This document shows, in pieces, positions 2,290 through 16,609 of a stretch of DNA of 60,459 nt. The translations under genes were made by a program, and so were the position numbers. Numbering within the stretch: position 1 is the first letter of the stretch; each line of letters starts with the position of its first letter. This DNA comes from Halobellus captivus (GTDB lineage: Archaea; Halobacteriota; Halobacteria; Halobacteriales; Haloferacaceae): positions 580,481 to 640,939 of the forward strand of contig NZ_VJXQ01000001.1 in assembly GCF_007655485.1 (NCBI RefSeq), in the 5' to 3' direction. The notes beneath the pieces were generated by a model. It did no database searches. It saw only the letters and a program-made list of their open reading frames with translations, and was not told the origin of the DNA.

Positions 2290-3352
2290 ACGCGCTGAAT
2301 TGGACGGCGGTTTTTATAGTGGTATCGTCGTCGTCGAACGCCGCCTCGAACTCGTCGAGGCCGTACACGCCGGTGACTATCGCGTCGCAGAACCACTCCG
2401 GAAACGCTTCGAGCGCCGTTGCGGCAGCCTCGAAGTGCCGGACGTTCGAGTTCACGCTGCCGACGAGCGCCTTGTTCTGCAGCACGAACTCGCGGTGGAG
2501 CGCCCCGCCGTCTATCTCGAACGACTGGGCGCCCGGGACGCCGAGCAGCGCGCCGACGCCGTTGGGCGCGAGCGCCTCGATCGTCTCGAAGGCGTGCTTC
2601 GGGTAGCCAGTCGCCTCGAAGATCAAGTCCATCGGTTCGTACGCGTCGGCGACGTCTCCGAGCGGCGTCTCCCGCGAGTCGACGTAGGTCGCACCTAAAC
2701 GCTCGATGACGTCGATCGTGGGATCGGGGCGGTCCCGGCGGCCCAGACAGTAGAGGCGGTCGTACTCTGCCCTCTGTCGAAGCAGCGCGAGCGCGAGTAA
2801 CCCGAGGCTACCGTTTCCGAGCACGAGCGCGGACGAGGGTTCCCACGTGAACGACGAGCGCGACGCGGCAGCGAGTTCGAGCGCCTTTTCGACCACAGAG
2901 AGCGGTTCGACGAGGAATCCGATCTCCGCAATCGAGCGCGAAACCGTCACCAGCGATTCCTCGGGGCTGGTGAAGTAGTCCGCCATAAACCCGTGCGCGC
3001 CCTCGATTCCGCGCTCGTGGTACGCGCCCGACGGGGCCATATCGGGTTCGCCGCGGGCGAAGTACTCGTTCGACTCGCCGGGCGCGCGACGGACCGTCGG
3101 GACGACGACATCTCCACGCGAAAACCGCGTATCCCCGGGATCCTCGACGACACCCACCGCCTCGTGGCCGAGAACGAGCGCGTCCGACCCGGCGGGGAAT
3201 CCGCCGTGGCCGCCGGAGATCACTTCGTGGTCGGTCCCGTCGACGCCGACGCGGAGCGTCCGAACGAGCACCTCGCCGGACGCGGGAATCGGTCGCTCGG
3301 TGTCCACGACGACCGGTCGGTTCCGCCCGCGCTCGACGGCGATGGCCTGCAT
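2273..3352 (-). CDS. gdh: Glucose 1-dehydrogenase
   Basis: A 359-residue zinc-dependent medium-chain dehydrogenase that oxidises glucose to gluconolactone with NAD(P)+, the first step of the semi-phosphorylative Entner-Doudoroff pathway of haloarchaea. It begins MQAIAVERGRNRPVVVD, typical of this subfamily. It has the zinc-site segment VLGHEAVGVVE, the FMADYF stretch and a Rossmann nucleotide-binding segment (ALVLGNGSLGLLALALL). Length matches the family. It is followed by gfcR with a 17-bp overlap, the same pairing as in Haloferax. A TATA box sits 22-29 nt upstream, so the message is probably leaderless. Confidence 0.92.
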   Translation of the reverse strand: MQAIAVERGRNRPVVVDTERPIPASGEVLVRTLRVGVDGTDHEVISGGHGGFPAGSDALVLGHEAVGVVEDPGDTRFSRGDVVVPTVRRAPGESNEYFARGEPDMAPSGAYHERGIEGAHGFMADYFTSPEESLVTVSRSIAEIGFLVEPLSVVEKALELAAASRSSFTWEPSSALVLGNGSLGLLALALLRQRAEYDRLYCLGRRDRPDPTIDVIERLGATYVDSRETPLGDVADAYEPMDLIFEATGYPKHAFETIEALAPNGVGALLGVPGAQSFEIDGGALHREFVLQNKALVGSVNSNVRHFEAAATALEAFPEWFCDAIVTGVYGLDEFEAAFDDDDTTIKTAVQFSAYEERR

Positions 3353-3373
3353 ACCCAGACGTACGCGTCGACC

Positions 3374-3381
3374 TGATAAAA
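3374..3381 (-). promoter_or_regulatory. TATA box of gdh-gfcR
   Basis: It reads TTTTATCA on the minus strand, 22-29 nt before the gdh start, within an AT-rich stretch running to the purB stop codon. The whole gdh promoter has only about 50 bp before it enters the purB coding end, so GfcR sites, if present, must be close to or inside purB. Confidence 0.6.
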
Positions 3382-3403
3382 GATTTATTCTACATTGAGT
3401 TAA

Positions 3404-4810
3404 TTATTGCATTCCAGTTTGCGACTCCAGCTCACCGACGAGTTCGTCGCCGAGACCGACGTACGTCACCGGAGAGAGCTCAGCGAGCTCCGCTTTCACC
3501 GCGTCATCGACGTCGAGATCGGCGAAGAGGTCGCGGAAGTCTTCGAGCGTGACGTTTCGCCCGCGCGTGAGCGCCTTGACTCGCTCGTACGCCTCGGTGT
3601 CGCCCTCGCGTCGGAGGATCGTCTGCACGGCCTCGCCGATCAGTTCGGGGTGGGATTCGAGTTCCTCGCGCATCACGGTCTCGTTCGGGACGACCTTTCC
3701 GAGCCCCGCTTCGGCCTTCCCGTAGCCGATCAGGCAGTGCGCGAACGCCGCGCCGATGTTCCGCTTGACCGTCGAGTCCGAGAGGTCGCGCTGGAGCCGC
3801 GAGGTCGTGACGTAGTCTGCGAGGAACGTCAGGTCCGAGTTGGCCTTCGAGAGGTTCCCTTCAGAGTTCTCGAAGTCGATCGGGTTCACCTTGTGCGGCA
3901 TCGTCGAGGAGCCCGTCTCGCCCGCGTCGGCTTCCTGCCCGAGGTAGCGGTTCGAGACGTAGAGCCAGACGTCGCGATCGAGATCGACGAGGACGTTGTT
4001 GACGCCGCGGAGCGCGTCGAACAGCGCCGCGAGGTCGTCGCAGGGGTTCACCTGCGTCGTCAGCGCGGTGTGTTCCAGTTCCAGGTCGGTGACGAACGAG
4101 CGGGAGAACGCGCGCCAGTCGACGTCGGGGTAGGCGGCCGCGTGCGCGGCGTACGTCCCCGACGCACCGGCGAGTTTGCCGGAAAGCCCGCTCGCGGCGT
4201 CGACGACGCGTCCCATCGTCGTCCCGAGGCGGGCGGCGTAGACGGCCATCTCCTTGCCGAACGTCGTCGGCGTTGCTGGCTGGCCGTGCGTTCGCGCCAT
4301 CATCGGCGTGTCGCGGTGCTCGTGGGCCAGGTCGACGAGTTCGTCGCGGACGGCCGCGAGCGCGGGCATCAACACCTCCTCGACGGCTGGCTTCACGAGG
4401 AGTCGATGCGCGAGGTTGTTGACGTCCTCGGACGTGAGCCCGAAGTGGATCCACGGGTGAATTCGCTCGTCGGTCTCCGTGCGCAGGAAGTACTCGACGG
4501 CCTTCACGTCGTGGTTGGTCGCGCTGTATCCCGCAGCGCCCTCGGTTTCGAGGCGCTTGATAAGCCGCGCGTCGTCGCCGTCGAACGATTCGATGACAGT
4601 TCGGAGATCGTCGCGCTCGGGGTCGGAGAGCGACAGCGGAGTGGCCGCGAGGGCGTCCAACGCGAGCAAGTATTCGACCTCGACGCGGAGCCGCGCCCGC
4701 ATCAGCGCCGCCTCGCTCGCGTAGGGAACGAGCGGCTCGGTTCGGCCCGCGTACCGTCCGTCCAGTGGGGAGACCGCCGCGAGCGGATCGGAACGTGAGA
4801 GATCGTCCAT
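3404..4810 (-). CDS. purB: Adenylosuccinate lyase
   Basis: A 468-residue fumarase/aspartase-superfamily enzyme. It cleaves SAICAR to AICAR and adenylosuccinate to AMP, releasing fumarate both times. Visible signatures are the N-terminal LSPLDGRYA-like segment (AVSPLDGRYAGRTEPL), the TSEDVNN loop, the MARTHGQPATPTTFGKE region and the superfamily signature GSSTMPHKVNPIDFENSEGN. Length is normal. It is divergent from purNH, so two enzymes that make and use AICAR flank one intergenic region. A TATA box 22-30 nt upstream suggests a leaderless message. Confidence 0.96.
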   Translation of the reverse strand: MDDLSRSDPLAAVSPLDGRYAGRTEPLVPYASEAALMRARLRVEVEYLLALDALAATPLSLSDPERDDLRTVIESFDGDDARLIKRLETEGAAGYSATNHDVKAVEYFLRTETDERIHPWIHFGLTSEDVNNLAHRLLVKPAVEEVLMPALAAVRDELVDLAHEHRDTPMMARTHGQPATPTTFGKEMAVYAARLGTTMGRVVDAASGLSGKLAGASGTYAAHAAAYPDVDWRAFSRSFVTDLELEHTALTTQVNPCDDLAALFDALRGVNNVLVDLDRDVWLYVSNRYLGQEADAGETGSSTMPHKVNPIDFENSEGNLSKANSDLTFLADYVTTSRLQRDLSDSTVKRNIGAAFAHCLIGYGKAEAGLGKVVPNETVMREELESHPELIGEAVQTILRREGDTEAYERVKALTRGRNVTLEDFRDLFADLDVDDAVKAELAELSPVTYVGLGDELVGELESQTGMQ

Positions 4811-4831
4811 ACGCGGAATCTCCGCGGTGCG

Positions 4832-4840
4832 CTAAAAAAG
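4832..4840 (-). promoter_or_regulatory. TATA box of purB
   Basis: On the minus strand it reads CTTTTTTAG, 22-30 nt before the purB start. It lies in the 168-bp divergent purB/purNH promoter region. A weaker candidate for purNH (CTTACTG) lies at 4951-4957, 22-28 nt before that start. Confidence 0.6.
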
Positions 4841-4978
4841 CGTGTCGATGGCGAGCCTCACTCCCGTGTATAGATAATGGCGTTGAGGCGCTCTTTTCGC
4901 ACACACCTATCCGCAATTGTGCATAATTCGATCGAGAGGACCGCAACTGACTTACTGTCTGCGCGAGGGCTCACAGGT

Positions 4979-6580
4979 ATGACCAAGATCGCCGGATTGG
5001 CGAGCAATCGCGGACGGAACCTCCGACACATCGACGACAGCGGACCGGGCGGGGCTGAACTGGCGGTGGTCCTCTCGAACCACGAGGGCGCACCGATCCT
5101 CGACGCCGCGGCTGAGCGCGGAATTCCGACGGAAGTCGTCGAGCGCGAGGCCGATGAACCTCGCGAATCGCACGAAGCGCGGATCCTCGACGCCCTGTCG
5201 AGTTACGACTTCGACCTCGTCTGTCTGGACGGCTATATGCGGATCCTCACGGGGACGTTTCTGGAGGCCACGCCGACGACGCTGAACGTTCACCCGTCGC
5301 TGCTCCCGTCGTTCCCCGGCGACGACGCGCACGAGCAGGTTCTCGACGCGGGGGTCAGCGTCACCGGCTGCACCGTCCACGTCGTCACTGAAGAGGTCGA
5401 CGCGGGACCGATCGTCACCCAGGAGTCGGTCCCGGTGTACGCCGATGACGACCTCGACGCGTTGAAGTCGCGCGTGCTCTACGACGCGGAGTTCACCGCG
5501 TACCCGCGCGCGGTTCGGTGGGTCGCGCAGGATCGACTCACCATTGAAGAGCGCGAGGCCGACGGGGGCACAGCGCTGACCGTCGCCGTCGAGGGCGACG
5601 ATGGCGGGGATTTCCCCGAGCGTCGCGTCGTCTCCGACGACCGCCGAGCGGAGCTCCGCTACGGCGAGAACCCCCACCAGGCGGCCGCGGTGTACGCTGA
5701 CGCCGCGGTCGACGAGGCGAGCGTCGTCGACGCGCCGCAGCTGAACGAGGGGGCGAAAGGGCTCTCCTACAACAACTACAACGACGCCGACGCCGCGTTG
5801 AACCTGATCAAGGAGTTCGACGAACCGGCAGCGGCGGTCATCAAACACACCAATCCGGCGGGCTGTGCGACGGCGGGCACGCTCGCGGACGCCTACGCCG
5901 ACGCGCTCGCGACCGACCCGATGAGCGCCTTTGGAGGCATCGTCGCGCTGAACCGCGAGTGCGACGCCGCGACGGCCGAGGAGATCGTCGACTCCTTCAA
6001 GGAAGTCGTCGTCGCGCCGCGCTACACCGAGGCCGCGCTCGACGTGCTCTGCGAGAAAGACGACCTGCGCGTCCTCGCGGTCGGCGACCTCGACGACCGG
6101 AGCGACCGACTCACGGAGAAGCCGCTCGTCGGCGGGAGACTCGTCCAAGAGCGCGATCTGTGGGCGCCCACCCGCGACGACGTCGAAATCGCCACCGAGA
6201 CGGAGCCGACCGACGAACAGCTGGAGACGATGCTGTTCGCCTGGAAGGTCCTCAAACACGTCAAGTCGAACGGCATCGTCTTCGCCGACGGCACCGAGAC
6301 CGTCGGCGTCGGAATGGGCCAGGTGTCGAGAGTCGACGCCGTCAAACTGGCCGCGATGAAGGCCGAATCCGACGCCGAGGGCAAGAGCCCCGAGGGGGCC
6401 GTGATGGCGTCTGACGCCTTTTTCCCGTTCCCTGACGGCGTCGAGGAGGCAGCGGAGGCCGGGATCGGAGCGGTTATCCAGCCCGGCGGCTCCGTCAACG
6501 ACGAGGACGTAATCGCCGCCTGCGACGAGCGCGGGATTCCGATGGTGTTCACCGGGCGGCGGTGCTTTCGGCACGACTGA
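4979..6580 (+). CDS. purH: PurN-AICARFT fusion (GAR transformylase / AICAR transformylase)
   Basis: A 533-residue bifunctional enzyme of purine synthesis. Residues 1 to about 200 are a PurN-type GAR formyltransferase with NVHPSLLPSFPG and the TEEVDAGPIV segment carrying the catalytic aspartate. Residues from about 220 to the end are the AICAR transformylase domain, starting at RYGENPHQ and containing VIKHTNPAGCA and SAFGGIVALN, ending FTGRRCFRHD. The MGS-type IMP cyclohydrolase domain that precedes AICARFT in bacterial PurH is absent. Haloarchaea close the ring with the separate PurO (known from the group). The start MTKIAGLASNRG is preferred over an upstream in-frame ATG because it opens the PurN fold. 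Confidence 0.94.
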   Translation: MTKIAGLASNRGRNLRHIDDSGPGGAELAVVLSNHEGAPILDAAAERGIPTEVVEREADEPRESHEARILDALSSYDFDLVCLDGYMRILTGTFLEATPTTLNVHPSLLPSFPGDDAHEQVLDAGVSVTGCTVHVVTEEVDAGPIVTQESVPVYADDDLDALKSRVLYDAEFTAYPRAVRWVAQDRLTIEEREADGGTALTVAVEGDDGGDFPERRVVSDDRRAELRYGENPHQAAAVYADAAVDEASVVDAPQLNEGAKGLSYNNYNDADAALNLIKEFDEPAAAVIKHTNPAGCATAGTLADAYADALATDPMSAFGGIVALNRECDAATAEEIVDSFKEVVVAPRYTEAALDVLCEKDDLRVLAVGDLDDRSDRLTEKPLVGGRLVQERDLWAPTRDDVEIATETEPTDEQLETMLFAWKVLKHVKSNGIVFADGTETVGVGMGQVSRVDAVKLAAMKAESDAEGKSPEGAVMASDAFFPFPDGVEEAAEAGIGAVIQPGGSVNDEDVIAACDERGIPMVFTGRRCFRHD

Positions 6581-6840
6581 GCGAAGCGAAGCGGGTGTTT
6601 CCTCACGACAGAAGTGAGTGACAGAGCCGCGGCTGTGGGTTGCCGGTTCCGAGCCAAAGGGCGAACAGTCGGCACCCGCGTCGGCGACATCGTCAGGAGG
6701 CGTAACACCCCGGATCGCCGTACCCCCACGTCGACGTGCCGAACAACCGCAGCCCGACGCGAGGCGTTTCTCAGCGCACGCGGGGTGTGGCCCCGTCATC
6801 GAATATAAATCCTCGTCGGTTACTGTCGGCCGCGCGACGC
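6581..6840. other. Convergent gene gap without a recognised gene
   Basis: This 260-bp gap lies between the purNH stop and the uspA stop. No frame here has a haloarchaeal-looking composition. A TATA-like ATATAAAT at 6802-6809 is near-symmetric and could drive a short transcript on either strand, but nothing confirms one. Confidence 0.4.
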
Positions 6841-7278
6841 CTAGCTGTCGGTCATCCGAACGACCAGAATCGGCTTCTGGGTATTCTCGACGACGCGTTC
6901 CGTCACGCTGCCGAGGTTCGCGAGTTTGTCCCGCCCGGAGCGCCCGTGCGTTCCCATCACGATCAGGTCGACGTCGTTCTCGTCGGCGTATTCGAGGATC
7001 GCGCGGTACGGAACCCCGTCGCGGACGGCTGTCGTGTAGTCGACGCCACCCTCCGCAGCCTGGTCGGCGACGCGTTCGACTGCCGACTGCGCGTCCCCTT
7101 TCATCGTCTCCTTCAACGTCTCCTTCTGCTCTTCGCCCGCGGCGAGATAGAGCCGCCTGTCCACCACGGAGAGCGCGTGGATCGTCGCGTCCCGCGTCGA
7201 TGCGATGTCCAGCGCGTGTTCGAGCGCCTGCACCGTCCCGTCGCTGCCGTCAGTGGGAACGAGTACGTCGTCGTACAT
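6841..7278 (-). CDS. Universal stress protein (UspA family)
   Basis: A 145-residue single-domain Usp. It opens MYDDVLVPTDGSDGT and ends with the ATP-binding signature GTHGRSGRDKLANLGSVTERV (glycines and serine in the G-2x-G-9x-G-S/T pattern), then PILVVRM. This pattern is that of ATP-binding Usp proteins. The longer frame upstream is rejected because the canonical Usp start is here. It is divergent from the NRDE gene with a 115-bp gap. Its specific stress signal cannot be inferred. Confidence 0.9.
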   Translation of the reverse strand: MYDDVLVPTDGSDGTVQALEHALDIASTRDATIHALSVVDRRLYLAAGEEQKETLKETMKGDAQSAVERVADQAAEGGVDYTTAVRDGVPYRAILEYADENDVDLIVMGTHGRSGRDKLANLGSVTERVVENTQKPILVVRMTDS

Positions 7279-7362
7279 CTCGGCGTACCGTTCGTCCGGC
7301 ACCCTCTTGAACGATGTCCTGATCGTGAGACGTCGATGGACCGCTCTCGCCGCCAGCCGAGG

Positions 7363-7370
7363 GTATATTT
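7363..7370 (+). promoter_or_regulatory. TATA box of the NRDE gene
   Basis: GTATATTT lies 24-31 nt before the GTG start at 7394 and supports that start. Confidence 0.6.
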
Positions 7371-7393
7371 CGCCGCCGCGCGAACGGTACGGC

Positions 7394-8173
7394 GTGTGTA
7401 CACTGACACTGGCGTGGCGCGTGTTCGAAGACGCTCCCCTCGTGGTGGCGGCCAACCGCGACGAGTCGCTGGATCGCGAATCGGAGGGACCGGCCGTCAG
7501 CGACGGGAACCCGTCCTTCGTCGCTCCGCGCGACGTCGAAGCGGGCGGCACGTGGATCGGGTACAACGAATCCGGCGTGTTCTGTGGCGTCACGAACCGC
7601 TGGGTCGACGTGCCCAACGGTGGGGAACGCTCGCGCGGACTGCTCGTCCGCGACGTCCTCGGGACCGAGAGCGCGGACGACGCGAGAACCGTCGTCGAAG
7701 CGGCCGTCGACGCGGACACCTACGACGGGTTCAATCTCGTCGTCGCCGAGCGCGGGCGGATCGACGACGCCACTTCGAGACCCCCAAAGGCGTTTCTCTT
7801 CGAGTGGGACGGCGAGCTGCGCGTCCGAGAGCTGGATCCGGGTGTCCACGTCGTCGTCAACGTCGGCATCGACGGGGAGTCCTTCGAGCCCGAGTGGGAC
7901 GCGGAGGCTGGGACCGAACAGGCGGCGAACGCGGTTCGCGTTCGCGAGGCGTTGGAACCGATTGCGGCCGAGGACTCTGCCGCCTGGCGTGACCGCGCGG
8001 CCGACGTGCTCGGCGATCACGACTACGGCGTCTGCGTGCACGACCGAGAGCGACGCTTCGGGACGCGGTCGTCGTCGCTGGTGACGCTGTCTGCGGACGG
8101 AACGTCCGAATTCCGGTTCGCAGACGGCCCGCCGTGTGAGACGTCGTTCCGCCCGGTCGAAAGTCACATTTAA
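7394..8173 (+). CDS. NRDE (TANGO2-like) family protein
   Basis: A 259-residue protein. GTG is chosen as start because the family begins Met-Cys-Thr-Leu, and here the second residue is cysteine (CTLTLAW), a possible N-terminal nucleophile. The name-giving motif appears as AANRDESLDR near residue 22. Further family features are GTWIGYNESGVFCGVTNR and the GFNLVVAE segment. TANGO2-like proteins are linked to haem or lipid handling in eukaryotes, but archaeal function is unknown. The protein has no membrane segment. Its stop codon overlaps the TATA box of the next gene. Confidence 0.85.
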   Translation: MCTLTLAWRVFEDAPLVVAANRDESLDRESEGPAVSDGNPSFVAPRDVEAGGTWIGYNESGVFCGVTNRWVDVPNGGERSRGLLVRDVLGTESADDARTVVEAAVDADTYDGFNLVVAERGRIDDATSRPPKAFLFEWDGELRVRELDPGVHVVVNVGIDGESFEPEWDAEAGTEQAANAVRVREALEPIAAEDSAAWRDRAADVLGDHDYGVCVHDRERRFGTRSSSLVTLSADGTSEFRFADGPPCETSFRPVESHI

Positions 8174-8174
8174 A
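8169..8174 (+). promoter_or_regulatory. TATA box of the winged-helix gene, overlapping the NRDE stop
   Basis: TTTAAA lies 25-30 nt before the start at 8199. It includes the TAA stop of the preceding gene, so the two genes can be transcribed separately despite their closeness. Confidence 0.6.
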
Positions 8175-8198
8175 CGACTCGCGGGCCACGTGAGGAGT

Positions 8199-8552
8199 AT
8201 GAGCGCAGGAGCCGCCGAAGCGGACCTCTCGGAAGACGAACGCGAAGCACTGGAATTCATCCGAGAGACCGGAGGGATCCACCAGAGCGACTTCTGGAAG
8301 GAACTCGACATCTCCTCGCGGAAGGGGAGCCGAATCGCCGAAAAACTCGCCGGGCTCGGCCTCATCGAGCGCGAGGAGACGGTGTACGACGGCCACAACA
8401 CCTACCACCTCGAACCGGCGGCCCGAGACCTCGACTTTTCGCTTTTGATGGCCGGGGATATGCTCTCGCCCTTCATCGGCGAGGAAGAAGTCAACCACAA
8501 CAGCGACGCCTTCTCCCAGTGGCTGATGAATCTCGCCTACGAGGAGTACTGA
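8199..8552 (+). CDS. Winged helix-turn-helix DNA-binding protein (117 aa)
   Basis: A small regulator-type protein. An acidic N-terminus leads into a winged-helix domain (LSEDEREALEFIRETGGIHQ, then a second helix pair around SSRKGSRIAEKLAGLGLIER), with the wing at REETVYDGHNTYHLEP. The C-terminus (DFSLLMAGDMLSPFIGEEEV) is helical and conserved-looking and could serve in dimerisation. The layout recalls MarR/Lrp-like haloarchaeal regulators, but the target is unknown. The start fits a GGAG at -7 and the TATA box at 8169. It faces psmA convergently across 247 bp. Confidence 0.82.
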   Translation: MSAGAAEADLSEDEREALEFIRETGGIHQSDFWKELDISSRKGSRIAEKLAGLGLIEREETVYDGHNTYHLEPAARDLDFSLLMAGDMLSPFIGEEEVNHNSDAFSQWLMNLAYEEY

Positions 8553-8646
8553 GCGGAGCCGACTCGTCGTCGCCGACGAGAACGGGGTCCTCGTATCACA
8601 GTCGACGCCGATTCAGCTGTTGGCTCGGGAACACGGGAAGTCAAAT

Positions 8647-8724
8647 TGAGTGCGTGGACGTCGAAGTGGACGCGTAGCTATGTAGTGGGCACGTGGCTGT
8701 TGTAGTGAGTGCGTGGACGTCGAA
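8647..8724. repeat. 19-nt perfect direct repeat in the HTH/psmA gap
   Basis: TGAGTGCGTGGACGTCGAA occurs at 8647-8665 and again at 8706-8724, 59 bp apart start to start, in the 247-bp gap between convergent genes. No coding frame covers the repeats. It may be a duplication relic. Confidence 0.7.
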
Positions 8725-8799
8725 CCACGGCGGTTCTGGGTGGATTAAAGAAACAGACGGAGCGGAGCGTCGTGAACGGGGATGCCGCCTCGTAGCGGT

Positions 8800-9576
8800 T
8801 TACTCCTCGTCGCCGTCAGCGTCTTCGCCGTCCTCGTCGTCCTCGGTGGGTTCGAGGTCGTTGTCGGCGATGTAGGTGGCGATCTCGTCGTTCGTGAGTT
8901 CGACGAACGCCTCCGTTTCGGTCGACACCGTCGCGACGTCGACGCCATCGGACGCGAGCTCGTCGTCGTTCGTCGACGCGATGGCGCGAAGCGCGAGTCC
9001 GACGCCCTCATCGAGCGTCAGGTCGTCGGCGAAGTTCTCCTCGAGGTGGTCTTGGAGGTCGCCGCGGTCCGCGCCGATCGAGACCGCCTTCCACTCGTAG
9101 GGCGTGCCCGAGGGATCGGTCTCGTAGAGCCGCGGTTCGCCGTTCTCGATGCCGCCGATGAGCAACGCGACGCCGAACGGGCGCGCGCCGCCGACTTGGG
9201 TGTACTGCTGGATGTGGTCGGTGACGTTCTTCGTCAGCGTCTCGATGCCGATCGCCTCACCGTAGCGGAGGTGGTTAACCTGCGCCTGACGCCGCGCGAA
9301 GTCGATCAGCTGTCTCGCGTCGGCGACGTGACCCGCCGAGGCGATGCCAGCGTGGTCGTCCGCCTTGTGGATCTTCTCGACGCTCGTCGGTTCCATAAGC
9401 GGCGAGCGCGAGCGCTTGTCGGCCGCGAGGACGACTCCCTCGGGTGTTCGGACGCCGATGCTCGCGGTCCCTCGCTTGACTGCCTCTCTGGCATACTCCA
9501 CCTGGTAGAGGCGACCGTCGGGCGAGAAGATCGTGATTCCACGGTCGTATGCCTGCTGTTGGGCTTGTCCCTGCAT
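8800..9576 (-). CDS. psmA: Proteasome subunit alpha
   Basis: A 258-residue alpha-type subunit of the 20S proteasome. The start MQGQAQQQAYDRG is followed by the alpha signature ITIFSPDGRLYQVEYA, whose N-terminal helix gates the pore and docks PAN/Cdc48 ATPases. Later motifs include VLAADKRS and the RPFGVALLIGG segment. The C-terminal tail is strongly acidic (EDDEDGEDADGDEE), as in haloarchaea. It lies four bases beyond the rnp2 stop in an operon with RNase P genes. A longer upstream frame is dismissed because it overlaps rnp2 in another frame. Confidence 0.96.
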   Translation of the reverse strand: MQGQAQQQAYDRGITIFSPDGRLYQVEYAREAVKRGTASIGVRTPEGVVLAADKRSRSPLMEPTSVEKIHKADDHAGIASAGHVADARQLIDFARRQAQVNHLRYGEAIGIETLTKNVTDHIQQYTQVGGARPFGVALLIGGIENGEPRLYETDPSGTPYEWKAVSIGADRGDLQDHLEENFADDLTLDEGVGLALRAIASTNDDELASDGVDVATVSTETEAFVELTNDEIATYIADNDLEPTEDDEDGEDADGDEE

Positions 9577-9580
9577 AGTA

Positions 9581-10060
9581 TCACTCGAAATCGAGCCGCG
9601 TCGCGCCCGCGAATCCCTCTTCGACCTCGACGTCGACGCGGGTGTCGCGGACGACGGCGGGGGTGGATTCGTTCTCGAACACGACGTCTCTCTGTTGTCC
9701 ATGTCCGGTCCGGCCGTTCAAATACCTTTCCTCACAGGCACGAACGGTGCCCGAAATCCCGCGGACGCGGACACCGACAGGGTGGCCGTCGATGCTGTCG
9801 AGCGCGGCGATGGCGGCGCGGGCCCGTTCCTCGGTGCCGCGGTGCGCGCGAACGATCGTCTCGCCGTCTCCCTCGGTGAAGTGAAACGAGAGCACGGTGA
9901 GGTCGGCCTCGGCGCTCCCTGCGTCGCCGTAGAGATTTTGCGCCGCGTACCACAGGTCGCGCTGAAACGACCCGCGATCGAGGTCGGCGTCGGGCCACGT
10001 CTCGATCCCCACCGCGAGATAGCGCCAGCGCGGCTGGAGGTGCTTCGGAAGGTGCTTCAT
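9581..10060 (-). CDS. rnp2: RNase P protein component 2 (Pop5 family)
   Basis: A 159-residue Pop5/Rpp14-family protein of archaeal RNase P, which removes 5' leaders from pre-tRNAs. It starts MKHLPKHLQPRWRYLAVGIE, typical of the family (short basic lead, then an RRM-like fold). It includes DLWYAAQNLYGDAGSAEADL and a GISGTVRACEERYL segment. Pop5 pairs with Rpp30 to activate the catalytic domain of the RNA, and the Rpp30 gene is two genes upstream in the same operon. Spacing is 3 bp from the methyltransferase and 4 bp to psmA, implying co-transcription. Confidence 0.9.
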   Translation of the reverse strand: MKHLPKHLQPRWRYLAVGIETWPDADLDRGSFQRDLWYAAQNLYGDAGSAEADLTVLSFHFTEGDGETIVRAHRGTEERARAAIAALDSIDGHPVGVRVRGISGTVRACEERYLNGRTGHGQQRDVVFENESTPAVVRDTRVDVEVEEGFAGATRLDFE

Positions 10061-10063
10061 CTC

Positions 10064-10834
10064 TCACTCCTCGCTCGCGTCCGTGTCACTGCCGTTCGAA
10101 TCCGTATCAGTGCTGTTCGCATCCGTGTCACCGCCGTTCGAATCCGTATCAGTGCCGTTTCCGTTCGTGTCAGCGTCGGTCGCATCCGACCCGGTTTCGG
10201 TCGCGACGTCGACCCGCTCGCTGGCGTCGCCGAAGCGCTCGGCGACGAGGACGCCGACCTGATCGTGAACGCGTTCGACGGCCGTGAGGGCGAACCCCTC
10301 GTCGGTCAGCGCGTCGACGAGTGTCCCCACGGTCGCAGGGTCGTCGACCTCGGGACTGTAGAACGGCTCGTCGGGGTCGGGCGCGCCGAAGAACATCACA
10401 TCTCCGAGGACGAACCGACGCGGGTTCAGGTCCGCGATCACGGCGATCGCCTCGCGCTTTTCGTCGTCGGAGAGGTGGTGCATCGCGAAGTTGGAGGTGA
10501 CAATGTTCACCGGGCCGTCGTAGTTGGGCTCGCGGAAGCTTCCCTCCCCGAACTCGACGTTCTCGATTCCCCCAGCTTCCGCTTTCGAGCGGGCCTCGTC
10601 GAGCATCCCGCCGCTGATGTCTCGGCCGATCACGCGCTCGGCGGTCGACGCGAGCGCGAGGGCGATCGCGCCGGTTCCGGTGCCGAGGTCGAGGACGACG
10701 TCCTCGGGGCCGGGGGCGGCGTGCTCGACGACGAGGTCGGCGCACGCGAGGTACTCCCTGGAATCTTGCTCGTCGTCGTACGACGACGCCAGCTCCGAGA
10801 AGCGCTCGGCGTGCTCGTCAATCGTCTTCTTCAT
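10064..10834 (-). CDS. SAM-dependent methyltransferase with repetitive Asn/Asp/Thr tail
   Basis: A 256-residue class I methyltransferase. Motif I is VVLDLGTGTGAIALALA near residue 47, with acidic motif II in ERVIGRDISGGMLD and a motif IV-like region TSNFAMHHLSD. The last 45 or so residues are low-complexity repeats of D, T, N, S and G encoded by an imperfect DNA repeat at 10073-10190. The start at 10834 overlaps the rnp3 end by 17 bp. An ATG at 10861 is also in frame. Its position between two RNase P genes hints at RNA or translation-related methylation, but the substrate is unknown. Nothing in the tail looks catalytic. Confidence 0.82.
   Translation of the reverse strand: MKKTIDEHAERFSELASSYDDEQDSREYLACADLVVEHAAPGPEDVVLDLGTGTGAIALALASTAERVIGRDISGGMLDEARSKAEAGGIENVEFGEGSFREPNYDGPVNIVTSNFAMHHLSDDEKREAIAVIADLNPRRFVLGDVMFFGAPDPDEPFYSPEVDDPATVGTLVDALTDEGFALTAVERVHDQVGVLVAERFGDASERVDVATETGSDATDADTNGNGTDTDSNGGDTDANSTDTDSNGSDTDASEE
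10073..10190. repeat. Imperfect repeat coding a Thr/Asp/Asn/Ser tail
   Basis: Units of about 30 bp alternate around CGTTCGAATCCGTATCAGTG and related variants. They encode repeats such as DTDSNGGDTDANST in the methyltransferase C-terminus. The TTCGAATCC units look like tRNA T-loops by chance only. Confidence 0.7.
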
Positions 10835-11570
10835 ACCGTCCCCGTTCGACGCCCGGGGCAATGAACGACTCGGACAGCCGCTCTCGGTTGCGAGCGACGA
10901 GTCGGTCCCACGCTTCGAGTCCCGCGCGGGTCCACTCCGCGCCGAGGCCGATCTCCTCGCCGACCGCCCCGAGCTCCCTGGGCGCTCGGAGCTTCAGGTG
11001 CGACGTCGGATTCGCGCTGACGACGTACGGCGCGTCGTAGTGATCGAGGAGCTGCTTCAGTTTCCGGAGTTTGCGCAGGTGGCGGACGCGGCGGCCGCCG
11101 CGGTCGCGGAGCACCGGCCCGAGGTTCACCTCGATCCGGACGTCGTTGTCGCGGGCGGCCTTCGCGAGCACGTGGTTGACGTCGCCGTCACCGTTTCCGT
11201 TGCCGTTTCGCCCGTTGGGACCGTTCCGGTCGTCGCCGTTCACCGTGCCCTCGAACGGCCGCGCGAGGACGTCGACGCGCGCCTGCTCGACGGCGAAGCG
11301 GTTCAGCGCGTTCGTCCCGCCCGCCACGATGACGACCGTGTGTTTCGTCCGAGCGTTGCCGACCGCGCCGCTGGCGTGCTGTGGGTCGGATGCGACGATT
11401 TCCGCGGCGTCGACGACATCGACAGAAAGCGACTCGCGGAGGCGTCCGTACTCGGGTGACGCGTCGTCCGCGCGGACGACCACGCCGTCGTACCCGTAGC
11501 GCTCGGCCGTCGCCGCGAAGCGGGCGGCCGTGCTGGCTCCGTCGGGGTAGGCGTGGACCGCCTCGTACAT
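10818..11570 (-). CDS. rnp3: RNase P protein component 3 (Rpp30 family)
   Basis: A 250-residue Rpp30/PHP-like TIM-barrel protein of RNase P. It starts MYEAVHAYPDGASTAARFAA and keeps the family segments YGYDGVVVRADD, RIEVNLGPVLR, LKQLLDHYDAPYVVSANPTSHL and the closing ELGAVGEEIGL. Around residues 108-130 there is a Gly/Asn-rich insertion (NGDDRNGPNGRNGNGNGDGD) lengthening a loop. It is the first gene of the operon rnp3 - methyltransferase - rnp2 - psmA and overlaps the second by 17 bp. This clustering of RNase P with proteasome genes is known in archaea. Confidence 0.9.
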   Translation of the reverse strand: MYEAVHAYPDGASTAARFAATAERYGYDGVVVRADDASPEYGRLRESLSVDVVDAAEIVASDPQHASGAVGNARTKHTVVIVAGGTNALNRFAVEQARVDVLARPFEGTVNGDDRNGPNGRNGNGNGDGDVNHVLAKAARDNDVRIEVNLGPVLRDRGGRRVRHLRKLRKLKQLLDHYDAPYVVSANPTSHLKLRAPRELGAVGEEIGLGAEWTRAGLEAWDRLVARNRERLSESFIAPGVERGRYEEDD

Positions 11571-11662
11571 ACTGGGGAGAACTCTCCGGGCGCGTATGGC
11601 AGTTACGGTCGTGGGACCGACGGTCGGCTACGCCCCGGAACGCCACGCTTCGTCAGGCGTTG

Positions 11663-12787
11663 TCACGCTCCGCCGACCAGTCGGTCCGTCGCGTCCGTCA
11701 GCGCCGCGGCCGCGCGTCGGACGTCGGCGACGTCGACGTACTCGCGGTCGGCGTGCGCGACGGCCCCCTCGTCGTCGGCGAGGACGCCCGGCCCGAACAC
11801 GACGACCGGCGCGGGAGAGAAGTACGACGCCTCGGTCGCGGCCGAGAAGGGCCGCACGACGCCCGAGCCGCCCGCCCGCTCCGATGCCGTGGCGAGCGTG
11901 CGCACGAGTTCGTGAGATCCGTCGGTCGCGAACGCTTCGAGGAACGGCGTCGGCCGCTCAGTGAGATCGAAGGCGACGCCGACGTCCTCGGAAACGGTCT
12001 TGCGGACCGCCGTTTCGAGTTCCGTTCTGAACCCCTCGGCCGTCTCGGGCGGGACGCTCCGTCGATCGAGAACGAGCTCGCAGCGCGCTGGGACCTGATT
12101 GGTCGACTCGCCGCCGGAGACGACAGTCGGCGTCAGCGACGCCGAGCCGAGCTGCGGGTGTGATTCGCGGCCCGCGTCGAACGTCCGAATCGAGGCGAGT
12201 GCGCCCTCCAGCCCGGCGATCGCGTTGACGCCCGAATCTGCCTCCGCCGCGTGTGCGGCCGAACCGGTGAGCGTCAGCGTCCCCTGGAAGCGGCCCTTCG
12301 CCGCGGGACAGACGTCGAGTCCGGTCGGCTCGCCGACGACGTACAGGTCCGCGTCGAGGTCGAGGGCGGCCGCCCCCGTCGAGAGCAGTTCCTCGTCGGG
12401 CGTCACCGCGAGCGTCACGCGGGCGTCCTCGCGCGGTTCGACGGCGAAAAAGGCGGCGAGAATCGACGCGAGCGGCCCCTTCGCGTCGCAAGATCCCCGG
12501 CCGTGGATGCGGACGAGGTGGCCGTCGACCTGTTCGCGCTCGAACGGAACGTGCGGCGAGACCGTGTCGATGTGCGTGTTGAAGACGAGGTGCGTTTCGG
12601 GGTCGGCCGCGCCCTTGGACGCCAGCGTGTTTCCGGCGTCGTCGACGCGGGCGTGGATCCCCTGGGATTCGATCGTCTCGACGAGGAACTCGCGCATCTC
12701 GTCGACGTCGTCGTTCGAGGCGATCGGAACGGCCGCTTCGAGGAAGGAAACCGCGTCGAACGCCGACGCTTCGACGGTTCCGGACAT
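11663..12787 (-). CDS. dapE: Succinyl-diaminopimelate desuccinylase (M20 family)
   Basis: A 374-residue M20 metallopeptidase-type enzyme. Metal-site segments are VFNTHIDTVSPH (His and Asp), GRGSCDAKGPLASILAA (bridging Asp) and TPDEELLSTGA (catalytic Glu). The segment GSAAHAAEADSGVNAIAG belongs to the dimerisation domain. It releases succinate from N-succinyl-LL-DAP, and its place as the last gene of a complete dap operon makes this function more likely than other M20 activities. It follows dapF with no gap. Confidence 0.9.
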   Translation of the reverse strand: MSGTVEASAFDAVSFLEAAVPIASNDDVDEMREFLVETIESQGIHARVDDAGNTLASKGAADPETHLVFNTHIDTVSPHVPFEREQVDGHLVRIHGRGSCDAKGPLASILAAFFAVEPREDARVTLAVTPDEELLSTGAAALDLDADLYVVGEPTGLDVCPAAKGRFQGTLTLTGSAAHAAEADSGVNAIAGLEGALASIRTFDAGRESHPQLGSASLTPTVVSGGESTNQVPARCELVLDRRSVPPETAEGFRTELETAVRKTVSEDVGVAFDLTERPTPFLEAFATDGSHELVRTLATASERAGGSGVVRPFSAATEASYFSPAPVVVFGPGVLADDEGAVAHADREYVDVADVRRAAAALTDATDRLVGGA

Positions 12788-13678
12788 CTAGATCGACCGC
12801 ATTACCGTGTCGAGCTCGCCGACGAACTCCCGTTCGGCGGGTCCGGCGAGCGTCGCGGACTCGCCGTCGGGGACGGTGATCCGAAGGTCGCCGCCCGGCG
12901 GGCTGACGGTCACCGTCTCGTCGCCGTCGACGAGGCCGAGCCGCTTTGCGACCGCTGCGACGGCGACCGCGCCGGTGCCGCAGGAGCGCGTCTCGCCCTC
13001 GACGCCGCGTTCGTACGTTCGCTGGCGGAAGCGGGGGGCACCTTCTGCGTTGGTGTCGGTGTCGACCCGTGAGGCGATCGTGACGTTCGCTCCCTCCGGG
13101 AAGACGTCCGCGTGCCGAATCGCGGGCGCGACGGCTTCGAGATCCACGTCGTCGACGTCGTCGACGATGGCGACCGCGTGCGGGACGCCCGTGTTCACCG
13201 CCGTGACGACGAGGTCCCCGACGTTTTCCTCGGTCAACTCAGTCTCACGCGCAAGCGGTACATCCCGCGGTGCAAACCTCGGGACGCCCATCTCGATAGT
13301 GACGTCGTCGCCGTCGACGACCGCGCGTCTGGTCCCCGCGGGCGTATCGATCATCAGTTCCGTCGATCCCGTGCGTTCCGCCGCCCACGCGGCGGCGACG
13401 CGCGCGCCGTTGCCGCACATCGCGGCGACGGAGCCGTCCGGTTGGACGAGCGTCATCACGACTCGCGGCGGCGAGTAACGGGCCTCCAGCGCCAGAAAGA
13501 GCACGCCGTCCGCGCCCGTTCGCGACGAGGCCTCGTGGTCGACGCCGGTCTCGCGGTCGCAGTGCGTCGTCGCGAACGCGGGTCGGTCGGGGATCGATTC
13601 GACGGCATCGACGACGATGAAGTCGTTGCCGGTGCCGTGGTACTTCTCTACTGCTACTCTGTCGTGCTGTACGCTCAT
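12788..13678 (-). CDS. dapF: Diaminopimelate epimerase
   Basis: A 296-residue PLP-independent epimerase that converts LL-DAP to meso-DAP. The two catalytic cysteines are visible in MCGNGARVAA and RSCGTGAVAVAA. The start region KYHGTGNDFIVVDA is diagnostic. Length is slightly over the usual 275-285. It overlaps lysA by 4 bp and abuts dapE. The two symmetric halves of the fold are both complete, so it should be active. Confidence 0.95.
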   Translation of the reverse strand: MSVQHDRVAVEKYHGTGNDFIVVDAVESIPDRPAFATTHCDRETGVDHEASSRTGADGVLFLALEARYSPPRVVMTLVQPDGSVAAMCGNGARVAAAWAAERTGSTELMIDTPAGTRRAVVDGDDVTIEMGVPRFAPRDVPLARETELTEENVGDLVVTAVNTGVPHAVAIVDDVDDVDLEAVAPAIRHADVFPEGANVTIASRVDTDTNAEGAPRFRQRTYERGVEGETRSCGTGAVAVAAVAKRLGLVDGDETVTVSPPGGDLRITVPDGESATLAGPAEREFVGELDTVMRSI

Positions 13679-14922
13679 TGTTCCAGTGCGGTCAGGTCAG
13701 TCAGGGTCTCTCGCCGTCGGGCGAGAACGACGGTCGTGCCGGACAACGCGACTTCCGCGGGCCGCGGCCGGGAGTTGTAGGTGCTCGACATCTCGTATCC
13801 GTACGCGCCCGCGTTCCCGATGGCCAGGATATCCCCCCGGTCGGGACGCGAGAGCGATCTGTGTTCACACAGTACGTCCGCGGACTCACATATAGGTCCC
13901 GCTACCGTCGCGTCGATCTGTTCGGCGTCCTCGGGGGCCGAGAGGTTCCGTATCGCGTGATACGCGTCGTACATCGCCGGGCGGAGCAACGTCGTCATTC
14001 CGGCGTCGACGCCGACGACCGTGGCGTCGCGCGCGCGCTTGACCGTGTTGACCGTCGTCAGGAGGACGCCCGCGTCGGCGACGACGTATCGGCCGGGTTC
14101 GATCGACAGCGTCGCGTCGAGGTTTCCGAGCGCCTCGCGGGTCGCCTCCGCCACGGCTTCCAGGTCCAGCGGCGGTTCCTCCTCGCGATACGGGACGCCG
14201 AACCCGCCGCCGACGTCGACGAATTCGAGCGACCCGACGCGGGATTCGATTTCCCGACAAAGGTCGCCCATTCGGCTCACCAGTTCGCGGTGCGCCGAGA
14301 GGTCGTCGCCGGAGATGCCGCTCCCGGCGTGGGCGTGGACGCCGACGAGGTCGAACTCCTCGGCCCACCGGGCGGCGAGATCGGCGACGCGCTCGATCGG
14401 AATCCCGAATTTCGCGTTCGCGCCGGTGCTGACCTTCTCGTGGTGGCCCGCGCCGACGCCCGGGTTCGCGCGGATACAGAGCCGCCCGTCGAAGCCGCGC
14501 TCGCGGAGTCTGTCGACCGTGTCCTCGGCGCCGACGGTGATCGTCAGTTCGGGGTGCTCGCGCCACCGCGCGGTCACGAGATCGAGGTCGCGGTCGGGCG
14601 GGTTGACCGCCGTGTACTGGATTCGGTCGCCGGTGAATCCGGCGTCGAACGCGCGTTCGACCTCACCGGCGGAGGCGCACTCGATTCCGAGCCCAGCCTC
14701 GCGGACCGATCGCAGCACGGGCTGGCCGGTGTGCGCCTTCGCGGCGTAGCGAACGTCCGCGTCGGGGAACGCCGCCCGCAGTCGCGCGCAGTTCTCCGTT
14801 ATCCTCCGACGGTCGACGACGTAGAGCGGAGTCTCGTACTCCTCGGCGAGCGCGACGAGTCGGTCATCGTTCCACTCGTCGAGGCGGCGGATCTCCGACC
14901 CGCCGTCGCCGCCCCCGCTCAT
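13675..14922 (-). CDS. lysA: Diaminopimelate decarboxylase
   Basis: A 415-residue fold-III PLP enzyme making lysine from meso-DAP. The PLP lysine lies in VRYAAKAHTGQPVL, the HAHAGSGISG loop follows near residue 196, and the glycine-rich phosphate loop is FVDVGGGFGVPY. C-terminal substrate residues lie in GPICESADVL, including the cysteine contributed across the dimer. It overlaps dapD by 4 bp and dapF by 4 bp, so translation is probably coupled. Confidence 0.95.
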   Translation of the reverse strand: MSGGGDGGSEIRRLDEWNDDRLVALAEEYETPLYVVDRRRITENCARLRAAFPDADVRYAAKAHTGQPVLRSVREAGLGIECASAGEVERAFDAGFTGDRIQYTAVNPPDRDLDLVTARWREHPELTITVGAEDTVDRLRERGFDGRLCIRANPGVGAGHHEKVSTGANAKFGIPIERVADLAARWAEEFDLVGVHAHAGSGISGDDLSAHRELVSRMGDLCREIESRVGSLEFVDVGGGFGVPYREEEPPLDLEAVAEATREALGNLDATLSIEPGRYVVADAGVLLTTVNTVKRARDATVVGVDAGMTTLLRPAMYDAYHAIRNLSAPEDAEQIDATVAGPICESADVLCEHRSLSRPDRGDILAIGNAGAYGYEMSSTYNSRPRPAEVALSGTTVVLARRRETLTDLTALEQ

Positions 14923-15764
14923 TCCCGCAGCGCCTCCTCGCGGCGGGTCTTATCGAGCGTGTCGTCCTCGATATCGAGCGCGACGACCGCGGGCTTGTAC
15001 GCGCCCGACTCGAAGAGGTCGTGATCGCCCAGCGAGGACTCGACGTAGCGGGTGAACGCGCGGCGGTCGGATGGGAGATGACCGTAGATGACCTCCTCCT
15101 CGACGAGGTCGTAGACGGGGATCCGCGGGCTCAAGAGCGTGTTCTCGCCGACGATCGTGTTCTCGCCGACGTGGAACCCGGAGGTGACGCGGCAGCCCGC
15201 GCCCAGCGAGACGCCGTCCTCGACGATCACAGGCGCGTCCTCGACGGGTTCGAGCACGCCGCCGATCAGCGTGTTCGCGCCGAGCTTCACGCCCTCGCCG
15301 AGCTGCGCGCAGGATCCGACCGTGTCACAGGAGTCGACGAGCGTGCCGTCGCCGACGTGCGCGCCGACGTTGACGAACGAGGGTGACATCATAATGCAAT
15401 CGGAGCCGAGGTACGCGCCGCGGCGGATCACGGTCCCGTCCGGCGTGTTCCGCGTTCCGCGGCCACCGAGGTCGGTCGTCGAGCGGAGCGGCAGCACGTC
15501 GTAGTAGGTGACGTCGCCGTACTCGCGGGGGAGCGTCTCGCGCAGGCTGAAGTTGAGGAGGATGCCGCGCTTGACCCACTCGTTGACGACCCAGCCGTCC
15601 GGGCCGCTGTCTCCCACCTGCTCGGCCGCCCGCACGTCGCCCGTTTCGAGGGCTTCGAGGAAGGCGTCGAGCGTCGAGCGCGCGGCGGACCCCGCACTCG
15701 CGGCGTCGACGTCGTCGTCCTGATAGCGCTGCCACAGATCGTCAACCTCGGATTCTAAACTCAT
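14919..15764 (-). CDS. dapD: Tetrahydrodipicolinate N-succinyltransferase
   Basis: A 281-residue left-handed beta-helix acyltransferase. Hexapeptide-type repeats run from about residue 115 (GTVIRRGAYLGSDCIMMSPS, then FVNVGAHVGDGTLVDSCDTV) to IVEDGVSLGAGCRVTSG. It transfers succinyl from succinyl-CoA to tetrahydrodipicolinate, showing that this organism uses the succinylase branch of the DAP pathway. It overlaps dapB and lysA by 4 bp each. The partner aminotransferase (DapC activity) is not in the window. Confidence 0.94.
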   Translation of the reverse strand: MSLESEVDDLWQRYQDDDVDAASAGSAARSTLDAFLEALETGDVRAAEQVGDSGPDGWVVNEWVKRGILLNFSLRETLPREYGDVTYYDVLPLRSTTDLGGRGTRNTPDGTVIRRGAYLGSDCIMMSPSFVNVGAHVGDGTLVDSCDTVGSCAQLGEGVKLGANTLIGGVLEPVEDAPVIVEDGVSLGAGCRVTSGFHVGENTIVGENTLLSPRIPVYDLVEEEVIYGHLPSDRRAFTRYVESSLGDHDLFESGAYKPAVVALDIEDDTLDKTRREEALRE

Positions 15765-16609
15765 CGTGAATCAGTATCCCCGTCGTCGCCGTCATCGTCT
15801 GCGTCTAAGACTTCGTCGAAATCGTACCGACCCGCGTCGCGGCCGGACAGCCACGCCGCGGCGTCGAGCGCACCCGCGGCGAAGATCCCGCGCGATCCGG
15901 CGCGGTGCGTCAATTCGACCACTTCCTCGTTTCCGGCCAAGAGGACCTCGTGCTCGCCGGTCACGTCGCCCGCCCGTCGCGCGTGGACGCCGATCTCGTC
16001 GCCCTCCCGGGGCTGGTCGCCGACGCGACCGTGGACGCGCTCGGCGTCGCTCGCGGCGCCGCCACCGCCCGCTCCGCGCGCGGCATCGATGTCGTCGAGG
16101 ATCGAAAGCGCGGTGCCCGAGGGCGCGTCGCGCTTGCCGTTGTGGTGCGTCTCCGTCACCTCGATGTCGTAGCCGGGGAGCGCCGAGACCGCCTCGCTGA
16201 CCGCGCGGCGGAGCGCCGCGACGCCGCGGGAGAAGTTCGACGCGCGCAGGAACGGGACGTCGCTCGCGACCGCATCGAGCGCGTCTTCGCCCGCGTCCTC
16301 GTAGCCCGTGGTTCCGACGACGACCGCGACGCCGTTGTCCGCAGCCGCGCGGAGGTACTCGACGCTGGCCTCGGGGACGGTGAAGTCGACGAGGACGTCG
16401 ACAGCGTGCTCGTCGATCGCCGCGCCGAGTTCGTCGTCCGCGACGATCGCGTCCGGCGCGTTCGGTGCGTCGCCGCTCGGAACGTCCTCGGGCGTTCGGC
16501 TCGCCGCGAGCACGAATCCGACGTCGTCGCGGTCGGCCGCGGCGGCGAGCAGTTCACCGCCCATTCGGCCGCTCGCGCCGGTGATCGCGACGGTGAGGCC
16601 GCCGCCCAT
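15761..16609 (-). CDS. dapB: 4-hydroxy-tetrahydrodipicolinate reductase
   Basis: A 282-residue NAD(P)H-dependent reductase. The Rossmann start is VAITGASGRMGGELLAAA. The catalytic segment EVTETHHNGKRDAPSGTA carries the conserved histidines and lysine of the family. FLRASNFSRGVAALRRAV and the closing GRYDFDEVLD are also typical. An acidic tail with DDDGDDGDTD reflects haloadaptation. The ATG shares one base with the dapA stop. Confidence 0.95.
   Translation of the reverse strand: MGGGLTVAITGASGRMGGELLAAAADRDDVGFVLAASRTPEDVPSGDAPNAPDAIVADDELGAAIDEHAVDVLVDFTVPEASVEYLRAAADNGVAVVVGTTGYEDAGEDALDAVASDVPFLRASNFSRGVAALRRAVSEAVSALPGYDIEVTETHHNGKRDAPSGTALSILDDIDAARGAGGGGAASDAERVHGRVGDQPREGDEIGVHARRAGDVTGEHEVLLAGNEEVVELTHRAGSRGIFAAGALDAAAWLSGRDAGRYDFDEVLDADDDGDDGDTDSR

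Follow-up and report, generated by a model that had tools for sequence, protein, structure and literature searches.

The question raised by this locus is why a gene encoding a class I SAM-dependent methyltransferase should stand between the genes of two RNase P proteins, and what its product methylates. The locus lies in a window of 60,459 nucleotides from Halobellus captivus (the whole stretch of DNA that was analysed), and an earlier note on this DNA had taken the tight position of the gene as a hint that the enzyme acts on tRNA or RNase P components. Were pre-tRNA or RNase P RNA the target, the enzyme would add a new layer to tRNA 5' maturation; were it a thiol, the gene would move out of RNA biology altogether. 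The gene arrangement is already published: according to its title, as cited in PMC4919917 and PMC2910475, the work of Gil et al. (2007) described proteasomal genes co-transcribed with RNase P and SAM-methyltransferase homologues in Haloferax volcanii, and in the available sections of a later paper HVO_1093 is named as the putative SAM methyltransferase co-transcribed with psmA in this organism (Humbard et al., 2010; PMC2910475). The hypothesis in these sections, methylation of the proteasome alpha1 subunit, was left open in 2010.

Organization of the locus

Four genes follow each other head to tail on the minus strand in the order rnp3, methyltransferase, rnp2 and psmA. The first (rnp3, 10818-11570, minus strand) encodes RNase P protein component 3 (Rpp30, 250 residues; PF01876, 111.8 bits), its top NCBIfam match being NF046111 with 126.9 bits, below the cut-off of 200. 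The methyltransferase gene (10064-10834, minus strand; PF13649, 61.4 bits) encodes 256 residues counted from an ATG, which was used as the start; the mechanical list of open reading frames opens earlier, with a TTG at 10861. RNase P protein component 2 (Pop5, 159 residues; PF01900, 72.6 bits) is encoded by rnp2 (9581-10060, minus strand), and the proteasome alpha subunit (258 residues) by psmA (8800-9576, minus strand), which matches the NCBIfam equivalog TIGR03633 above its cut-off with 347.3 bits. Judging from the gene coordinates, the end of rnp3 and the start of the methyltransferase gene overlap by 17 bp (10818-10834, minus strand), in agreement with the earlier description. That description also had the gene almost touching rnp2 and psmA, which is correct for rnp2, at 3 bp, and not for psmA, which is the next gene after rnp2 and separated from it by 4 bp.

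The methyltransferase gene is located between rnp3 and rnp2, upstream of psmA and on the same strand, and from this position and the type of enzyme we infer that it is the local copy of the gene known as HVO_1093: the psmA and RNase P genes with which the H. volcanii gene is co-transcribed, the latter by the 2007 title, stand in one row in the window. ARAGORN (on the window) and Rfam (on 6000-16000) detected no tRNA or other structured RNA, and a scan built for bacteria, not for archaea, gave no bacterial-type promoters or terminators at 8500-12000. Upstream of rnp3 and on the same strand, positions 11663-15764 of the window contain an M20 peptidase gene (Pfam) and, from reading the translations, DapF-, LysA- and DapD-like genes, so that the RNase P/psmA operon follows a lysine-pathway cluster here. 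The nearest named relatives are Halobellus species.

Family and fold of the methyltransferase

The assignment to the class I methyltransferases was borne out. The PF13649 score lies well above the curated cut-off of 27, the conserved core (residues 1-202; 10229-10834, minus strand) was delimited with PF13649, a 54-row alignment and an AlphaFold2 model, and the fold is Rossmann-like, with a glycine-rich SAM motif (G53, T54, G55) and an acidic D72 after strand 2 that are invariant in the 54 sequences. In total, 22 columns are invariant over these sequences, whose identity goes down to 40%. The family profiles name no substrate: the best 25 of 35 NCBIfam models (CpaM, ArsM, PrmC, UbiE, ChlM, RlmD, BioC, CmoM and others) all scored under their cut-offs, the top one, CpaM, with 53.3 bits against 180. 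No RNA-binding domain was found, Pfam giving only methyltransferase models and AlphaFold2 a single-domain core, although such an accessory domain is not present in every RNA methylase. The HH motif of the methyltransferase may resemble Trm9 enzymes.

Among the 50 structural matches listed by VIA-align, Z scores ranged from 19.1 to 22.4, and the top rows (Z 20.6-22.4) comprised ChlM, CysG(N-16), MM_2633, YcgJ, NodS, ToxA and Trm112-bound HVO_0019. By title the best matches are mostly small-molecule enzymes (ChlM, CysG(N-16), ToxA, NodS, UbiG); CmoA and the Trm112-bound HVO_0019 of H. volcanii (Z 20.6) are also close folds, and for a fold as common as this one the structural ranking names no substrate. 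YcgJ of Bacillus subtilis (1xxl) was the best match both by sequence in the PDB (2.3e-11) and by Foldseek, yet YcgJ and UbiE-like methyltransferases are only 22-26% identical to the window enzyme. The second-best PDB sequence match, 9ri2, is titled bacillithiol methyltransferase NmbA. A single PADLOC match (mad2, 63.2 bits, residues 32-136) was taken as fold similarity, and an antiphage role was dismissed.

The repetitive tail and the Rpp30 insert

The core is followed by a variable C-terminal tail rich in D, T, N, S and G (residues 203-256 plus the stop codon; 10064-10228, minus strand), short or absent in the 101 other copies compared. The repeats recognized earlier in this tail correspond to a 21/42-bp tandem array in the DNA (10075-10188, minus strand; TRF score 158, period 42), with five copies at a spacing of 21. 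Past the last core motif the window copy has 57 residues, against a longest of 35 and a median of 12 in the other 101, in a set of 102 methyltransferase frames that are not all independent, since several loci duplicate others. Elsewhere in its own genome the array has one short match, of 23 bases, which lies on a different contig. The tail is a local expansion of one genome and is probably disordered, as the AlphaFold2 model gives block means of pLDDT of 51-63 at residues 201-256 vs 86-98 at residues 11-200; it would represent a recent tandem expansion without a conserved role. Since the 101 other copies (which may not include HVO_1093) lack such a tail, the idea of a functional element was dropped, and the tail carries no weight as the hint to function that had been seen in it. 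The repeat contains GTTCGAATCC, which resembles a tRNA T-arm motif; ARAGORN predicted no tRNA gene in the window, the GTTCGAATCC-bearing repeat included.

The Gly/Asn-rich insertion reported in Rpp30 was likewise located, at residues 107-131 (11178-11252, minus strand). Among the 54 of 102 Rpp30 sequences that the search pattern could read, an insert of 17-25 residues occurs in 11 Halobellus-type loci only and measures at most 6 residues in the remainder.

Conservation of the gene order

Conservation of the gene order in haloarchaea had been set beforehand as a test. In a first set of 30 genomes (the genome of the window and 29 relatives) every genome gave some methyltransferase match at E <= 0.001, and in 20 loci from this set, that of the window included, the methyltransferase gene was found beside rnp2 in 20, rnp3 in 19 and psmA in 19. 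Across the taxonomic order a match at E <= 1e-20 was obtained in 118 of 146 genomes, and in 106 of the 122 good ones (104 if G039 and G131, which have distant paralogues, are set aside), with rnp2 found in 141 and rnp3 in 140 of the 146. The gene order is conserved: 82 of the 118 matches lie beside both RNase P genes, 19 beside rnp3 only, 9 beside rnp2 only and 8 beside neither, these last including G039 and G131 with the distant paralogue only; the split match of G073, which overlaps rnp3, was counted under both rnp3 and rnp2. Absence from the operon in most relatives, which would have spoken against a link, was not observed.

An overlap with rnp3 is present in 92 of 100 rnp3-adjacent copies and measures 11 bases in 57, 14 in 24, 8 in nine, 5 in one and 4 in one, the stop codon being uncounted. 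Because the overlap is so regular, translational coupling between rnp3 and the methyltransferase gene is likely. Of the 19 genomes with the gene beside rnp3 only, 14 have it at a distance of 0.4-8 kb from rnp2-psmA, and in the other five a relocation or a different contig sets the two apart. Attachment to rnp3 or to rnp2-psmA was considered as a guide to the substrate and discarded, as both occur (in 19 and nine genomes) and the independent events are few.

Several neighbourhoods (L121, L122, L075, L083, L084, L093 and L140) were read from genes called by a home-made caller. In L075 (genome G113, 2897-8000) several kb separate the methyltransferase gene and rnp2, with opposite-strand ABC-type transport genes, as judged from translations. 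The L105 and L122 lineages have an SBDS gene after psmA and a gene for a PF01877 RNA-binding protein before rnp3, identified by Pfam in L105 and by similarity of translation in L122. In L019 and L124 (Halobellus, the same frames) the methyltransferase matches two overlapping frames, so that the frame looks broken or a sequencing error is present.

Dispensability of the gene

Of 23 rnp2-bearing genomes without a methyltransferase match, 18 have rnp3 and rnp2 on one strand with 5-180 bp between them; in the remaining five the two genes are separated or rnp3 was not seen. Among 20 loci taken from genomes without a match, rnp3 falls outside the stretch in four (L047, L048, L055 and L064). Absence here means that none of the candidates scored, up to 18 for each genome, reached E <= 1e-20, some of the genomes being incomplete. 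On a tree of 101 rows, 22 of them without the gene, built by a quick method from joined rnp3/rnp2/psmA rows after 12 of 113 had been dropped as identical, presence of the methyltransferase switches 14 times, at least nine of them on supported (starred) branches, nine not being a hard floor given the long branches of the gene-less rows L047, L048, L062, L063 and L066, and the count being blind to gain vs loss. Four gene-less rows fall together to one side of the root, which was placed at the midpoint rather than inferred, and our own reading is that the gene arrived after these branches and was lost later; the absences would then be mostly losses. Altogether, the methyltransferase gene is widespread yet dispensable in the RNase P/proteasome operon. 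A literature search, supplements aside, returned no deletion or essentiality data for the gene; a deletion should be viable, because natural relatives without it exist in many families.

A gene that is missing from many lineages, and of which one relative (L019/L124) has a broken frame, might be a passenger that does little and is no longer connected with the operon, retained since disrupting overlapping genes would be costly. This is very improbable in view of the SAM motif and invariant columns retained down to 40% identity and of the matches in 106 good genomes, or 104 without G039 and G131.

RNA as a target

That the gene sits between those of two RNase P proteins and overlaps rnp3 would find a direct explanation if the enzyme were an RNA methyltransferase acting on pre-tRNA, tRNA or RNase P RNA, with Trm112 or the RNase P proteins perhaps acting as the RNA-binding part and the overlap keeping the products in step. 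The occurrence of the Trm112-bound HVO_0019 among the close folds is consistent with such a role. In six genomes, all of one family, the methyltransferase gene has neither RNase P gene next to it, and the four of these copies that were placed on a tree group as a single clade (support 95). Two sites of displaced copies point to RNA: five genomes of one genus have the copy divergent from a gene for an RNase Z-like hydrolase (125.4 bits vs the RNase Z cut-off of 292.95), and on a metagenome-assembled (MAG) contig (L121:2063-6115) it stands between tgtA and arcS, both above their NCBIfam cut-offs. Both tgtA and arcS look split or shortened in the reading frames of L121.

The displaced copies, however, do not gather at tRNA-modification genes. 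In the family of genome G068 (106 genomes), a methyltransferase match was obtained in 89, tgtA in 102 and both in 86, and by eye tgtA lay within 100 kb on the same contig in none of the 86, many of the pairs being on separate draft contigs; linkage to tgtA as a rule was abandoned after this survey, the L121 contig being the exception. On nine or more supported branches the gene appears or disappears with rnp3 and rnp2 retained, neither Pfam nor the AlphaFold2 model reveals an RNA-binding domain, and the Haloferax inventory of RNA modifications (PMC2584109) makes no mention of HVO_1093 in its main text. The inference from position to a tRNA or RNase P function is not supported by these observations; moreover, psmA belongs to the operon as well, and most plasmid paralogues adjoin an oxidoreductase gene. 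Position is the support for a possible role on RNase P or tRNA, and an RNA methyltransferase seems to us a rather unlikely account.

Proteasome and RNase P proteins as targets

The enzyme might instead methylate a protein product of its own operon, either as a carboxyl methylase of alpha1, the published form of the idea, or by acting on Rpp30 or Pop5. As reported in the available text of PMC2910475, psmA is co-transcribed with HVO_1093 and H. volcanii alpha1 is methyl-esterified at Asp20, Glu27, Glu62, Glu112 and Glu161; in addition, nine genomes keep the gene beside rnp2 and not rnp3. According to the same text, activity of HVO_1093 on alpha1 was attempted in vitro and could not be shown, and in 19 genomes the gene sits beside rnp3, cut off from rnp2-psmA. 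Moreover, the target positions fail to track gene presence in the PsmA alignment: at the five positions (window PsmA numbering) all 21 rows lacking the gene have D or E, as do 87-88 of the 88 rows that carry it, the exceptions being one V and one gap. Taken by themselves these positions give no signal for or against methylation by an HVO_1093-type enzyme. Methylation of the operon's own products is improbable on this evidence.

The plasmid paralogue and its redox partner

Another indication came from a paralogue on haloarchaeal plasmids and at other sites, as seen for example in Halostagnicola larsenii and Halopiger xanaduensis, which belongs to the same family as the window gene and differs from it in clade, operon and lid segment. 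Six copies form a clade separate from the operon branch (support 100), and the alignment shows a lid segment PLFGHGV-DAATV in the paralogue vs PFYSPEVDDPATV in the operon branch. In four of them (L084, L092, L093 and L094) the paralogue is directly downstream of a gene for an NAD(P)/FAD oxidoreductase, and an HTH gene, TrmB-like in L094, is found close by on the other strand; in the other two (L083 and L140) no oxidoreductase is present in the fetched stretch. A plasmid collection gave 10 matching records, all haloarchaeal, the eight closer ones being 63-67% identical to the window copy, and the oxidoreductase is directly upstream in six of the ten (H1-H5 and H7). H7 and H10 were judged from the match table, H7 also from locus L092, and the genome and plasmid sets overlap, L094, L092 and the second match in G399 looking like H3, H7 and H6, respectively. 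In H6 a short hypothetical gene precedes the paralogue instead of the oxidoreductase.

The six best solved relatives of this oxidoreductase include thioredoxin reductase (4ntd), DepH and GliT. GliT and the S-methyltransferase GtmA are a known redox/methylation pair in gliotoxin protection, as described in the accessible part of PMC5356443, and the likeness lies in the pairing of a dithiol oxidoreductase with a methyltransferase seen for the paralogue; that pair is fungal and the window gene has rnp3 and rnp2, not a DepH/GliT-like oxidoreductase gene, as its neighbours, which makes this an analogy, not membership. Through the paralogue the chemistry could be approached from a second side. Proteins in which an oxidoreductase is fused to a methyltransferase exist in bacteria; no such fusion was found among the best 50 of 253 plasmid rows.

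Based on the available evidence, the reading that we prefer, with a probability of roughly 0.4, is that of a methyltransferase of small molecules, possibly thiols, riding in the RNase P/proteasome operon. The family would methylate a small molecule, perhaps a thiol or another soft nucleophile handled by DepH/GliT-like redox chemistry, and the chromosomal copy would be expressed as a housekeeping gene by riding the operon and would not act on RNase P. This reading is preferred because of the redox partner of the paralogue, the single-domain fold and the patchy presence of the gene, and is also supported by the general class I models being the only profile matches, by the small-molecule structural matches and 9ri2 (NmbA), by the non-operon copies in six genomes and by rnp3 and rnp2 being kept together where the gene is missing. 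Several points go against it: two of the paralogues (L083 and L140) and the window copy have no oxidoreductase gene with them, the paralogue may have changed substrate, as its lid segment differs, and the overlap in 92 of 100 copies exceeds what a mere passenger would need. In addition, the structural argument is a ranking within a very common fold to which CmoA and HVO_0019 are also near, and the literature search found no small-molecule assay of an HVO_1093-type enzyme.

An intermediate reading splits the family in two. The chromosomal branch would be translationally coupled to Rpp30 as a dispensable modifier linked to the output of RNase P, acting on pre-tRNA or on a thiol metabolite that affects tRNA maturation, and the plasmid branch would be coupled to a dithiol-type oxidoreductase. 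No such link of tRNA processing to the methyl or redox state turned up in the literature search, and we regard the split as quite improbable.

Distant and decayed copies

A search of 246 genomes of the phylum, in which no more than 10 candidates were scored for each, gave two genomes outside the order with matches that passed 1e-16; these, G168 and G177, belong to one family, and their copies are 50 and 52% identical. G177 contains mcrA and is a methanogen by gene content, and G168 gave no mcrA match; neither fetched stretch, one of which ends at a contig end, has RNase P or psmA neighbours. A viral origin was discarded, as viral contigs hold only methyltransferases of 23-37% identity. A distant paralogue subfamily of about 42-47% identity occurs at other loci (L079, L081, L091, L095 and L176), the plasmid copy in L176 lying near ParA, and plasmid records H9 and H10 are of this distant type. 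On plasmid pHTUR03 of Haloterrigena turkmenica (H8/L175, 4001-4595) the closer paralogue is in three unannotated pieces near ParA and AbiE-type genes and looks decayed.
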